DNA of 64,000 nt from Hyaloraphidium curvatum. Its lineage: Eukaryota; Monoblepharomycota; Hyaloraphidiomycetes; Hyaloraphidiales; Hyaloraphidiaceae. A program made the position numbers and the translations under genes. The notes under the pieces were generated by a model. The model was given only the letters and a program-made list of their open reading frames with translations. It was not told the DNA's origin and ran no database searches. The DNA lies in the NCBI GenBank assembly GCA_025558095.1, contig JAIVFI010000001.1, positions 1,254,501 to 1,318,500 of the forward strand. The letters run 5' to 3'. This document shows, piece after piece, positions 49,820 to 53,638 of this stretch. Within the stretch, counting starts at the first letter, position 1. Each line of letters starts with the position of its first letter.

Positions 49820-51067
49820 TTAACCAGATGCTGCTGCTGCGGTACCGTTCTTCAGAACGGAATCGCTTAACCACTTTTTCACCTGGGCGACAAAGATCTT
49901 TCGCGCCGCCAACGGATTCTTGTTTCCACACTGCCACTTGATGCTAGCCAGATGGATGTTCCCTACCTGCAGCCGAGGAACGTCGTCCAAGTGTCCAAAC
50001 TGGCATTTGACCACGTGCTGAACGCCAGCTGCCGTCGCGAATGCGATGGCCTGGTTCAAGTCTGCTCGCTGATCAAATGGTCGATCAAGAGCAATCTTGT
50101 ACTTGACGTCTCCGACCGCGACGCATTTCGTTTGATGCTTGAAGACGAGGTCTGGATTGAACCCGTACTCTTTGCCGCGGCTGTCCTTAACCATCGTGCG
50201 TGACTTCGATACGCTTATGCCCAGATGCGACCACAATGTCTTCCTCAGAATGGCGCGAAGTCCGTCCTCAGCAATCGCTGCGGAAGGCAGAAGGAAGCAC
50301 CAGCTGATCGTGTCTCCGAACTCAGCGGATCGTGAGATGGAGTCAAGAATGTGACAAGCAAATGTCCAAGCGGTTTCATAATGGGCCATCCGGCGGCTCG
50401 GTGGAACGTCCCTGTCTCCAGGCTGAAGATCTCCGACGCCGTCGAACTTTTTCAGTAACCCTTGCGCGTCAGAAGCATAGACTCGTGTCCGCGGTCCGCG
50501 AAGTTCCGCGACGACTTCCAGCGCCGCTCGCAAAACCCTGTTCACAGCAGTGTTTGGGGACTGCACATCCGCTGTGACTTTTGGCTCCAAAACGCCTTCA
50601 TAAAATCTTCTAGCAACGTGCATGGGATCTAGAGCGCCGTTCCACGTTTCCCCGACGACTTCGGCATCTCGGTAGTCACGGAAAAGAGGAGAGTATAGAA
50701 GAAGCTCCAGTTCGTCCAGAAACCATCTCAAGATGAGTTCCACGAGGCCGCAGGCTGGCGCGGCCTTGAGTTCGGTAGGCTCGAAGCTGGGTACGAACTT
50801 GGCCACGCCGGCGAGGTACAGAAGATGGTTCAGAGGAATCTTCGAGCTAATGACTATGGTCCGTTCGCCTGCACCGATGAGACCGACCACGTTCATCGCG
50901 CTGAGCTGCCATTTGCCATTGTCCAGGCGTTCGATGTTGACACGGCGGTCCTCCTTGAAAGTCGTTGCCCTCTGGAGGCCATCGACCATCGCCTTGAGCG
51001 CCAGACCCTCAAATTCGTCAATATCAATCTCGAAAGGCCGCCCATCGTCCTGGAAAGGGCGTTTCAT
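49820..51067 (-). CDS. mcrC: McrC-like nuclease subunit of a type IV restriction system
   Basis: An intronless 415-residue protein. Residues 55-90 match the McrC N-terminal domain (MNVVGLIGAGERTIVISSKIP). The C-terminal PD-(D/E)xK nuclease core is intact: P305-D306 in NPDLVF, then D320-V321-K322 in VAVGDVKYK. The following helix (RADLNQAIAFA) has the Gln expected downstream of the core. In bacteria McrC cleaves DNA carrying modified cytosine when driven by translocation by the McrB GTPase hexamer. The partner McrB lies 1.25 kb away on the other strand, start to start across a 229-bp gap with the LRR coding region between. A sampled line (50041-50100) is 48% GC by hand count, lower than the neighbours. 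No organelle signal seen. Confidence 0.88.
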   Translation of the reverse strand: MKRPFQDDGRPFEIDIDEFEGLALKAMVDGLQRATTFKEDRRVNIERLDNGKWQLSAMNVVGLIGAGERTIVISSKIPLNHLLYLAGVAKFVPSFEPTELKAAPACGLVELILRWFLDELELLLYSPLFRDYRDAEVVGETWNGALDPMHVARRFYEGVLEPKVTADVQSPNTAVNRVLRAALEVVAELRGPRTRVYASDAQGLLKKFDGVGDLQPGDRDVPPSRRMAHYETAWTFACHILDSISRSAEFGDTISWCFLLPSAAIAEDGLRAILRKTLWSHLGISVSKSRTMVKDSRGKEYGFNPDLVFKHQTKCVAVGDVKYKIALDRPFDQRADLNQAIAFATAAGVQHVVKCQFGHLDDVPRLQVGNIHLASIKWQCGNKNPLAARKIFVAQVKKWLSDSVLKNGTAAAASG

Positions 51068-51296
51068 TTGTCCAGGGGTACGCTACTGCGGGCTGCCACG
51101 GTCCCGCGCGCGCAGCGTGGCGCCGGCGTGCACATACATGTACATCACCACGCGCCTGCCATACTCCGTCTTGGGTTGATGCGTTGACGTCGAACAACGC
51201 GGCAGCTTGTTCGTTTCAGCACCCGTGTTTTATTCGCCCGCGAACGGTCGCCGGAACGCGCATCGAACGACAACCAGTTTTGCGTCTCCCTTGGGA
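51068..51296. promoter_or_regulatory. Divergent control region of the McrC and LRR-McrB genes
   Basis: 229 bp between the McrC start (51067, minus) and the LRR-McrB start (51297, plus). Shared control of both arms would be expected for subunits needed together. I see no clear TATA box or palindrome; CATACATGTACATC at about 51133 is a short palindromic AT-richer element. Confidence 0.4.
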
Positions 51297-52266
51297 ATGG
51301 AGCCATTGCCGGGTAGTGACGGCGCATCAGAGTCCTCTCTTAAACGATCAGTGGATCGCAGTGGCACTACTGATGAGCCGCGGAAGATCCAGCGGACGAA
51401 CGGACCAGGCGGCGCTGCGGTCAAGGAGGACCAAGGACAGCCCCCTGTCCCCGCTGTTCCCGGCAGAAACTGGAGGGGTTTCCCTATAACTTTTGATGGG
51501 CTACTGTCAATCGTGGCCTCGGATCTGTCGGACGAAGTTGTGGACGATATCATCAATGGCGAACCGTTCAAGAGGAAGGACATTGATCAAGTCCGGCTTT
51601 TGAGGGTGTCGAAAAGTGCTGTTAAGGATGCTTATCATCGCGTGTTTCACGACATGTCTTACTTCACCCTTGAGCGCGAAATCGAAAGCAATTGCTTTGC
51701 GTTCCTGGCCCAAGAAGCTCAATTATTCCATCTCCACATGTGGGGCCGTGGAGGGCTGAGAAGCCAAGGATGGGCACGCTTACTGCATCTCTTCAAAGGT
51801 GAAGGCCTGGATGTAGTATGGCACAGGAAGCTCCCAGGCCCAGACAAGCTCATCATCGAGTACATTCAAGTTGCTGTTTCCCAATCACATTGCCTTCGCA
51901 TGACTAGCAGACCATGTTCTAGACAATCACATTGCCTTCGCATGACTAGCAGACCATGTTCTAGACAAAGCAAAGCTCTCTGGTCTTTTTCTTGTAGATT
52001 TGAATTTGGGGATGCTCGATGAGGAGGTTCTTGCTTCCAGTCTGTCTAAGTTACCTCAGTTGCAGCAACTGTCCTTGAAAGGCAATCACTTCAAGAATGG
52101 GATGCTGCCATTCTATGCTCCAATTGGTGGAATGAAACACTTGACCTACCTGGGACTCCCTAGCTCATGGGAGGAGGACAGTGATAAGCTTATTGGATTA
52201 CTGAATGAATTGAAACAACTGGAATTCATTGTCACTCCTATCTTGAATGCTTTGTCGGCCAGGTAA
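51297..52266 (+). CDS. F-box-like/LRR region upstream of, and in phase with, McrB
   Basis: Exon 1 starts at ATG 51297: a polar leader, an F-box-like helical part (LSDEVVDDIINGEPFKRKD ... VRLLRVSKSAVKDAYHRVF) and further helices. The frame then changes across an intron-like stretch containing the 42-bp duplication. One fit is donor 51799 and acceptor at 51964 or 51997 (phase 1). After it come clear leucine-rich repeats (SGLFLVDLNLGMLDEE, LPQLQQLSLKGNHF, MKHLTYLGLPSSW, LKQLEFI) ending in TAA at 52264-52266. The McrB frame continues in the same phase just downstream, so this may be the N-terminal half of a fused LRR-McrB protein if an in-frame intron removes the TAA. I count 45% GC at 52021-52260. 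Confidence 0.6.
51882..51965. repeat. Perfect 42-bp tandem duplication
   Basis: The 42-bp unit starting CAATCACATTGCCTTCGCAT occupies 51882-51923 and again 51924-51965 with no mismatch. It lies in the probable intron of the LRR-McrB gene and contains repeated CTAG/CAG acceptor-like sites. Perfect identity suggests a recent event. Confidence 0.95.
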
Positions 52267-52317
52267 TTTTTTCAATGTGTACTCGATGCATCGCCTGCGT
52301 TAGCCAACCTTTCTACC

Positions 52318-53565
52318 ATGTACCTTGCAACACCTTCCTTGGAAATGCCAGCAGAGTCATTTTATGGGTCAAAGCTCGAGGACATGAAGCAACGATGGCC
52401 CGAGCTGTACTTTTCAGGTTACAACAGTGCCATCAAGCATCTGAACGAACCAGTTAAGGTGCTGAATGAGACTTCAGTACTGGACACGCAAGATCCAGCA
52501 GTAACCAGTTCAAATGAGCTAGACATGGGCTTGTATGAACGCCAGGATCAGCATCAGCTGCTTGCAAACCTGGCAAATGTTCGGGTGGACAAGTTCAAGG
52601 CATGCATTGACATCCTGTGCAGCTCGCGACCAAACTTACTCCTCAGTGGACCACCTGGGACAAGCAAAACGTTTCTGGCAGAGAAGCTGACCGAACACTT
52701 CTTTCGAAGTTCGGAAGAGCGGAAGCAGCGGGTGACATTCGTGCAATTCCATCCCTCGTACACCTATGAGCAGTTTGTCGAAGGCTTATACCCGCAACTC
52801 GTGGATGATAAAGTGAAATTCGATGTTCGTCCCGGGAAGCTAAGGCTTGCTGCGGAGTGCGCGAGAGTGAACGCAGCTGAGCGGCCAGGTGCCATCCTCG
52901 TTATTGACGAGCTCAACCGTGGAAACGTTGCTAAGATCTTTGGTGAACTCTTGTACCTCATCGAATACCGTGACAAGGAGATCATGCTCCAGCATTCCGA
53001 CCACTCTAAGGATTCGGAGCGCTCCAAGGACCCTCCGAACTCCTTTTTCTCGATCCCCAGCAATCTGGCGATCATTGCGACCATGAACACGGCCGATCGC
53101 AGCATCCAGTCGCTCGATGCAGCAATGCGGCGGCGGTTCAACGTCGTGGAGCTTCCTCCGGACGCGGACGTGCTCGAGAGTTTCTATGGAGACCGAGCGA
53201 ATCTCTTGCGTGGTGCGGAACTGGTGGCGCTGATTCGTGGATTCAATCAGCTTAACGAACAACTGAGGACCGATCTATCGGAAGATCAGCAGTTCGGCCA
53301 CGCGAATTTTCTCCCGCACCCAAAGTCGGACGTAAAGGGGAAAGGGCGAGAGGGAACGTCCGACTATGAGCAGTTCGGTCCCCAGCAACTTCAGCGTCGT
53401 TGGAAAGAGATCATCTACCCGCAACTCCGCGAGTACTTCCACGGCAATCGAAACAAGAGCAAGCTTGATTCCTACACTTTTTCTAGCTTTTGGGGAAGGA
53501 GCAAATGGGTCGAGGGATGGACAGAGCCAAAGACAAAGCAGGGCTCTGGTCGTCGACAAACTTGA
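52318..53565 (+). CDS. mcrB: McrB-like AAA+ GTPase of a type IV restriction system
   Basis: A 415-residue frame from ATG 52318. The AAA+ core is complete: Walker A GPPGTSKT (111-118), the McrB-specific strand FVQFHPSYTYEQFVEGLYPQ, Walker B ILVIDE (193-198) followed by LNRGNVAKIFGEL, the McrB GTP-specificity motif MNTADRS (256-262), and the arginine-finger segment LDAAMRRRF. The C-terminal helices (QQFGHANFLP, WKEIIYPQLREYF) match the McrB lid. In bacteria the GTPase hexamer binds McrC and translocates DNA. No SRA, EVE or other known modified-base reader is seen at the N-terminus; instead the upstream coding region is LRR. The first 70 residues could be spliced to that region. No introns are needed in the core. 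Confidence 0.92.
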   Translation: MYLATPSLEMPAESFYGSKLEDMKQRWPELYFSGYNSAIKHLNEPVKVLNETSVLDTQDPAVTSSNELDMGLYERQDQHQLLANLANVRVDKFKACIDILCSSRPNLLLSGPPGTSKTFLAEKLTEHFFRSSEERKQRVTFVQFHPSYTYEQFVEGLYPQLVDDKVKFDVRPGKLRLAAECARVNAAERPGAILVIDELNRGNVAKIFGELLYLIEYRDKEIMLQHSDHSKDSERSKDPPNSFFSIPSNLAIIATMNTADRSIQSLDAAMRRRFNVVELPPDADVLESFYGDRANLLRGAELVALIRGFNQLNEQLRTDLSEDQQFGHANFLPHPKSDVKGKGREGTSDYEQFGPQQLQRRWKEIIYPQLREYFHGNRNKSKLDSYTFSSFWGRSKWVEGWTEPKTKQGSGRRQT

Positions 53566-53638
53566 ATGATGTTTCCCGTGCAAACATTTGCATTGCAGCC
53601 AATACATTCCCTGAAACCGCGTCTAAAACCGCGATCGT

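Follow-up and report, generated by a model that had tools for sequence, protein, structure and literature searches.

A 64,000-nt stretch of DNA from Hyaloraphidium curvatum (hereafter, the window; bases 1254501-1318500 of a 1.6-Mb contig in a host assembly of 31.9 Mb and 55 contigs) contains a divergent pair of genes encoding homologues of McrB and McrC, the motor and the nuclease of McrBC restriction systems. Two further McrB-McrC pairs are present in the same genome; in one of these the motor is fused to leucine-rich repeats (LRR), and in the other to ankyrin repeats. Repeats at the place of the bacterial reader domain hint at a receptor-like, nuclease-armed system, and it seems to us reasonably likely that the window carries a host-resident, domesticated McrB-McrC pair of this receptor-like kind, with a nuclease that is aimed or triggered by protein recognition, and that the fungal pairs go back to two bacterial origins. 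Below, C1, C10 and C5 are contig labels of the host assembly; C1 is the contig of the window, so that the C1 pair and the window pair are the same.

The McrB and McrC homologues of the window

Firstly, the McrB open reading frame (ORF) matches the Pfam family AAA_5 (E 2.7e-20), and all five sequences that it retrieves at E <= 1e-3 from the solved structures of the Protein Data Bank (PDB) are McrB proteins, the best one with E 4.3e-31. Residues D197 and E198 of Walker B, as well as N200, R201, N257, D260 and S262, are identical in 19 of 19 aligned rows, and the protein possesses the Walker A, Walker B and NxxD signature of a McrB-type AAA+ GTPase domain. The initial annotation had stated that Walker A, Walker B and the MNTADRS motif are retained, which is correct with one departure, Ser116 in Walker A, to which we return below. 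The NCBIfam McrB model PRK11331 matches the fungal motors with E 5e-30, 8e-28 and 3e-33, far under its cut-off, and in PADLOC the fungal McrB proteins match restriction-enzyme models. The motor is of the AAA_5/McrB type and not of the NLR type: no PF05729 (NACHT) or NB-ARC match is listed, and the cross-matches of the window motor to NPHP3_N (E 0.0009) and nSTAND3 (E 0.005) are below cut-off and are likewise seen with some bacterial McrB proteins.

Secondly, the McrC ORF matches PF10117 (McrBC) over residues 56-347 with E 2.2e-21 (76.6 bits, cut-off 23.9), and it is also above cut-off in a genome-wide search with this family. Alignment with 23 bacterial McrC proteins shows that the PD...DxK core is retained, as had been claimed, with E267, D306, D320 and K322 agreeing with the bacterial rows (D306 in 24 of 24 rows, E267 and K322 in 23, P305 in 22 and D320 in 20). 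As a single query against the PDB, the window McrC finds no McrC at E <= 1, its lone match (E 0.39) being unrelated. A profile of the window, C10 and Priestia McrC proteins (for the latter, see below) matches Escherichia coli McrC (E 4.4e-7, N-terminal half) and Thermococcus gammatolerans McrC (E 0.009), and a 24-row profile that is led by the window protein and is otherwise bacterial matches them with E 6.9e-28 and 3.1e-63, respectively. The protein has the composition expected of the family, namely a DUF2357-type N-terminal region and a PD-(D/E)xK nuclease. The NCBIfam McrC model matches the C10 and C5 McrC proteins below cut-off and gives no match with that of the window, and none of the three fungal McrC proteins matched a PADLOC model. 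The profile and PDB searches thus place both window proteins inside the McrB and McrC families, and not outside them.

Paralogous pairs and the sequences upstream of the motors

Protein searches of the host genome identified at least three McrB and at least three McrC places (these genome-wide counts are lower bounds), one of each on C1, C10 and C5, and a PF10117 search found the identical three McrC places, every one above cut-off. The paired genes are adjacent and divergent on C1 and C10 and share a contig in the case of C5; none of the pairs forms a tandem operon. The C10 pair is arranged head-to-head like that of the window, with McrB on the minus and McrC on the plus strand and start codons 6-138 bases apart, depending on the McrC ATG chosen, and its proteins share 63% (motor) and 44-45% (McrC) identity with those of the window.

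The C10 McrB gene is a single 793-codon frame, the first ~480 residues of which form an LRR part that is followed by the AAA_5 motor. The LRR part matches LRR_6 (24.7 bits, cut-off 23.4) and LRR_1 (21.7 bits, cut-off 20.6), as well as ribonuclease-inhibitor structures (E 6e-5); we base the assignment on these Pfam and PDB matches because the motif counts are only moderately above those of shuffled sequences (with the loose pattern 13 motifs, where shuffles average 6.4 and 10 of 2000 attain 13; with the strict pattern 3 motifs, attained by 126 of 2000). At the 5' end of the gene, a short ATG exon would join in frame via a probable 56-nt intron, CAG/GTTAGC...CTCTAG. When six candidates for the origin of the LRR part within the genome were compared, the sole match was the gene itself. 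The C5 McrB gene encodes an 801-aa ORF inside a 915-codon open frame, in which seven Ank_2 stretches (six in the longer-frame scan) are followed by AAA_5, and the C5 McrC matches T. gammatolerans McrC even as a single query (E 4.8e-5). Hence, in C10 (LRR) and in C5 (ankyrin), a repeat part of the sensor type and the NTPase motor lie in one open frame. No modified-base reader (MrcB_N, EVE or others) was detected by Pfam in the McrB proteins, at E <= 1 for the window and at E <= 0.1 for C10 and C5; a reader of another, undetected kind may be present. The ankyrin-McrB query gave 83 matches in the genome, which beyond the three McrB places fall nearly all in its ankyrin part and are spread over many contigs; according to these matches the host possesses a large set of ankyrin-repeat genes.

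The initial annotation described the window pair as complete. Both ORFs are indeed where it had placed them, and yet "complete" is too strong, because the McrB ORF (52318-53565) covers the motor alone and LRR-type sequence lies just upstream of it (51998-52262). This upstream segment contains three strict LRR motifs in one frame, against a shuffled mean of 0.29 (4 of 5000 shuffles reach three), and a looser pattern counted over both predicted exons occurs five times (shuffles average 2.2, and 105 of 2000 attain five). Two donors at the joint with the motor have acceptors in matching phase, a canonical one at 52263 (acceptor end 52427) and a weaker one at 52181 (acceptor end 52303). Judging from these features, the product of the window gene may be an LRR-McrB fusion, a motor alone, or a copy that is losing its sensor. 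The ORF containing predicted exon 1 matches no Pfam family at E <= 1, and this exon finds nothing under E 0.2 among the solved structures. When the C10 protein was compared by tblastn with positions 51000-53620, the motor was found and otherwise only pieces at E 3.9 or worse; the N-terminus of the C10 protein is not alignable with its window counterpart.

The features of the locus are compiled in the table. The chance of a 415-codon open frame from the given start is ~2e-8 at the local base composition. An exact head-to-tail duplication of 42 bp (51882-51965) lies within the predicted intron of the McrB gene, and an Rfam scan of the window gave no match.

Table. Features of the McrB-McrC locus, in positions of the window
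Feature	Position	Strand	Remarks
McrC homologue, 415 aa, one open frame	49820..51067	-	N-terminal activator-type region and PD-(D/E)xK core (E267, D306, D320, K322); PF10117
Intergenic gap between divergent start codons, possible bidirectional promoter	51068..51296	.	Putative promoter role
Predicted exon 1 of the McrB gene, start ATG 51297	51297..51798	+	Predicted splicing; basic clusters resembling a nuclear localisation signal (by eye only)
Predicted intron, phase 1	51799..51997	+	Donor AAAG/GTGAAG, acceptor TTTTTCTTGTAG/AT; predicted from sequence
Predicted exon 2, three LRR motifs (LxxLxLxxN type)	51998..52262	+	Strict motif count against shuffles; weak LRR_8
LRR-motor joint, in-frame TAA 52264-52266	52263..52427	+	Candidate intron CAG/GTAATT...AACAG 52263-52427, or weaker-donor 52181-52303; both in phase
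McrB GTPase motor, 415-codon open frame	52318..53565	+	Walker A GPPGTSKT (111-118), Walker B IDELNR, MNTADRS, RRRF

Genomic setting, bacterial relatives and constraint

The pair is flanked by a TXNDC17-like gene (PF06110), with an FAD-linked oxidase gene, presumably for a D-lactate dehydrogenase, beyond it, and on the right side by a histone deacetylase gene; PRP8, gamma-tubulin complex and mitochondrial carrier genes are also present in the window, in agreement with the earlier description of a divergent pair among eukaryotic genes. The fungal transcription-factor domain PF04082 (Fungal_trans) has 74 exon-level matches in the host genome and none in 14 control genomes. Two other families were used in an attempt to place the host more narrowly within or near the fungi: the radial-spoke family matched neither the host nor any control, and the aromatic lyase family matched five controls and not the host. 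Because of these matches and the eukaryotic neighbour genes, we consider the locus to be fungal and nuclear. An assembly chimera or bacterial contamination, which the G+C dip at the locus and the lack of introns in both listed ORFs might suggest, is very improbable and was rejected, since the bacterial relatives are distant and paralogous pairs lie in eukaryotic surroundings on two further contigs, beside forkhead and ALIX-type genes on C10 and a synoviolin-type gene on C5; the LRR and ankyrin fusions and the probable intron also argue against it. The nearly identical bacterial DNA that would betray contamination was found neither among the matches listed nor in plasmids (McrB at most 39% among the loci listed; nearest McrC 27.2% and 28.8%). 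Our best reading of the sequences is that the fungal pairs are old acquisitions that have been refitted with eukaryotic-style repeats. The small contigs C51, C52 and C53 yield matches with the same scores as places on C10, C1 and C33, and may represent duplicates or alternative haplotypes within the assembly.

The fungal side of the comparison is this one genome, and the bacterial collections comprise prokaryotic genome contigs and plasmids. A scan of the genome contigs with the McrB alignment yielded at least 42 confirmed loci, of which the best-scoring is 36% identical and the highest 39% (best segment, among the matches listed); bacterial loci were retrieved with patterns derived from the fungal proteins, which entails a selection bias, and counts from that scan are lower bounds. 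Among plasmids, 323 records matched McrB, with top identities of 34.8-37.9%, the first being Priestia pB2.1 (34.8%, E 4e-47). The same Priestia aryabhattai plasmid (NZ_CP064098.1, locus L077) encodes the nearest bacterial McrC found, which is 27.2% identical over 89% (E 4e-33) from the window protein and 28.8% over 77% (E 2e-37) from that of C10, and its adjoining McrB carries MrcB_N (DUF3578). At least 25 families occur in 41 bacterial McrB proteins, and neither LRR nor ankyrin is among the 25 that are listed. A search with the McrC profile A6 (E <= 1e-15) recovered relatives in the order to which Bacillus sp. MM2020_1 belongs (6 of 397 genomes) and in the phylum of Streptomyces glomeratus (23 of 396). 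As regards a viral vehicle, one of three viral-contig scans gave a single distant McrB locus among the matches listed and the other two gave none, and of 21 matches in phage records none covers 80% of the query. Close to the Priestia McrBC genes (L077, 1814-7116) lies a gene annotated as Avs1c, of the AVAST anti-phage system.

A McrC tree of 68 rows unites C1 and C10 as sisters (100/99) and places the Priestia protein as sister to both (100/99). C1 and C10 are likewise sisters in a 42-row McrB tree (98/82), in which C5 groups with a Kurthia protein (96/93) within a separate starred set of 26 rows (98/90). A single fungal clade was rejected by approximately unbiased (AU) tests for both McrB (p-AU 0.0198) and McrC (p-AU 0.0165), and a grouping of Priestia with C1 and C10 was not rejected for McrB (p-AU 0.403). 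The trees built before the Priestia sequences were included show the same split of C1 and C10 from C5. The better reading of these trees is that there were probably two bacterial acquisitions, one leading to C1 and C10 and the other to C5. Of the 43 bacterial loci, L048, L063 and L064 were excluded from the McrB trees, and L026 and L065 also from the 42-row tree; McrC is present in 39 of the 43, its trees were made without L048 and L065 (<150 bits), and the 68-row tree additionally without L026 and L029. A long-branch warning applies to the C1 and C10 rows in the pre-Priestia McrC tree, and the bootstraps were unsettled in the pre-Priestia McrB tree and the 68-row McrC tree.

Differences between C1 and C10 fall mostly on third codon positions, both in the motor (28%, 19% and 63% of first, second and third positions, respectively) and in McrC (46%, 34% and 67%). 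Estimates by NG86 are dN 0.30 for the motor, for which dS is not computable, and dN 0.59 and dS 2.7 for McrC. The third-position bias fits purifying selection on both genes over a large part of their past, with the weakest constraint on the nuclease half of McrC, and this signal concerns the history that separates C1 and C10, not the present state of the window copy. Together with the distant bacterial relatives and the paralogous pairs on two contigs, the predominance of third-position substitutions upholds the initial proposal of a true McrB-McrC pair at a eukaryotic nuclear locus, here that of a fungus.

Possible function and alternative explanations

The receptor-like reading would imply the following course of events. 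The ancestor of the C1 and C10 pairs would have come from the bacterial McrBC lineage that is now seen on the Priestia plasmid, and the C5 pair from another branch of bacteria. On the way to C1 and C10, the tandem operon would have become a head-to-head pair able to share one promoter, and the methylcytosine-reading N-terminal domain would have been lost. Repeats of a protein-binding type would have replaced the reader, namely ankyrin in C5 and LRR in C10, with LRR being probable for the window gene as well. McrB would form an AAA+ GTPase ring with McrC docked inside, as in bacteria; by sequence, all parts for a McrC-activated McrB ring are present in the fungal pairs. The repeat domain would bind a protein cue, which may be of foreign or transposon origin, a non-self protein of the host, or else a chromatin reader, and this cue would position or license the ring, upon which McrC would cut the DNA nearby.

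The initial annotation had envisaged instead a domesticated nuclease that could act on modified host, transposon or virus DNA. An enzyme still acting directly on modified DNA, with its recognition site in either the motor or McrC, or else in an N-terminal fold that escaped detection, would be in keeping with its relatives, which are 5-methylcytosine (5mC) restriction enzymes, with the lack of a detectable family in the region of predicted exon 1, and with the C5-DNA-methylase-family genes of the host (PF00145, ten exon-level matches). We consider it unlikely, because the MrcB_N domain of the nearest relative is undetected in the fungal proteins and LRR or ankyrin repeats stand at the position of the reader; in the form proposed, action on modified DNA is not supported. 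Moreover, in a host with C5-DNA-methylase-family genes, a nuclease guided by 5mC could be a danger to the very genome that encodes it, and loss of the reader would fit. Two similar genes of this methylase family (L067 and L070) lie ~24 kb apart on C12, and the other PF00145 matches are on C4, C1, C31 and C11.

A role in defence or non-self recognition is suggested by the descent of the genes, by their paired retention, and by N-termini that are unalignable beside conserved motors. The data fit more than one task, and LRR and ankyrin domains scaffold many processes; a role outside defence is conceivable, in which the repeats would act as scaffolds and the proteins would serve, for instance, in DNA repair, in recombination or in a programmed change of the genome. 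However, this is quite improbable in our view, as the unalignable N-termini of C1 and C10, as opposed to motors that are 63% identical, present the pattern of fast-changing recognition parts, although independent fusion or decay could also produce it. More generally, it is a tentative idea that McrBC has become, in fungi, the basis of an intracellular immune or non-self system of the receptor-like kind, in which repeats would sense a protein cue, the McrB ring would be the switch and McrC would destroy foreign or own DNA, and which would derive here from two acquisitions.

Several observations speak against a receptor-like pair with two origins. The LRR stretch and the motor of the window share a frame and are separated by one TAA (52264-52266), and the match of the window to Pfam LRR_8 (E 0.012) is under the cut-off; because of this in-frame stop and the short, Pfam-weak LRR part, the window copy may be motor-only or losing its sensor. 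Residue 116 in its Walker A motif, GPPGTSKT, is Ser, a position occupied by Gly in at least 90% of the 19 rows; the Ser is common to C1 and C10, and C5 has Gly. Active AAA+ proteins such as MCM can carry Ser or Ala at that position. In C5, McrC is ~18 kb from McrB, with the synoviolin-type gene between them. Between C1 and C10, conservation is lowest in the nuclease half of McrC (36% identity; differences of 51%, 39% and 65% by codon position), and synonymous change between the two is saturated, with YN00 giving no estimate for the motor or for the whole McrC. As for the two origins, C5 stands elsewhere in the 68-row McrC tree, on a long branch, in no starred set and at a weak split (74/95), and the AU test for McrC did not reject a grouping of Priestia, C1, C10 and C5 together (p-AU 0.136). 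In the 42-row McrB tree, C1 and C10 group with two alphaproteobacterial proteins on a long branch (81/88), and Priestia is placed nearby, not as their sister. The groups for the AU tests were picked after inspecting the trees. Finally, we infer a protein cue in place of a modified base because LRR and ankyrin repeats usually bind proteins.

Some of these observations would also be accounted for by a decaying transfer, of which the window copy would be a relic, with the C10 and C5 copies either working or functionless too. Besides the in-frame TAA, the short LRR tract and the Ser in Walker A, base composition could point in this direction: G+C is 0.486 at 52-53 kb of the window, and G+C at third codon positions (GC3) is 0.61-0.62 in the C1 pair, below the motors and McrC genes of the other pairs (0.69 for McrC and motor of C10, 0.80-0.84 for C5; 0.52 in the C10 LRR part). 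GC3 in host ORFs, taken from stop to stop and possibly containing non-coding bases, is 0.63-0.95. Decay is nevertheless improbable, given that both 415-codon frames are open with their nuclease and GTPase residues kept, that the divergence is biased to third positions, and that both partners are retained on each of three contigs.

The receptor-like reading can be compared with known systems. The McrBC of Priestia pB2.1 has the same motor and nuclease as the C1 and C10 pairs; it differs in having MrcB_N on its McrB and its genes in tandem, whereas the C1 and C10 pairs are head-to-head with LRR. The McrBC systems of E. coli K-12 and T. gammatolerans (PDB 6hz4, 6ut5 and relatives) share with the fungal pairs an AAA+ GTPase with Walker A, Walker B and NxxD and a McrC with an N-terminal activator region and a PD-(D/E)xK core. 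E. coli McrB differs in that its N-terminal domain reads methylcytosine, and both systems are distant in sequence, with solved McrC chains being matched by profiles and not by the window McrC as a single query. NLR immune receptors and bacterial Avs proteins join a repeat or sensor domain to a P-loop NTPase, with an effector; their likeness to the fungal McrBC is one of working principle only, as the fungal NTPase is an AAA+ domain of the McrB type and the nuclease is a protein of its own. Animal McrB-type GTPases, reportedly treated by Iyer et al. in 2004, likewise represent a McrB-like GTPase domain in a eukaryote, the difference being that the fungal loci have McrC. The main text of a 2024 McrBC census states that DUF3578 at the N-terminus of E. 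coli McrB recognises methylcytosine, that bacterial McrB GTPase rings are activated by McrC, and that the animal proteins are highly divergent in function, with a McrC partner unreported; it left out eukaryotes (PMC11090510). The word "ankyrin" is absent from that main text, and "leucine-rich" occurs in it twice, in the abbreviation list and for another ATPase (PMC11090510). We found no report of a fungal McrB-McrC pair in the titles and abstract openings of the open-access literature; such genes may well be annotated already in fungal genome databases.

If true, the receptor-like reading would mean a new route for a prokaryotic nuclease system into eukaryotic biology, with three pairs, probably two sources, and repeats at the position of the reader. 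Two questions become testable with it: can a protein-binding domain switch a McrB ring, and does a nuclease-armed receptor take part in fungal defence, transposon control or non-self recognition?

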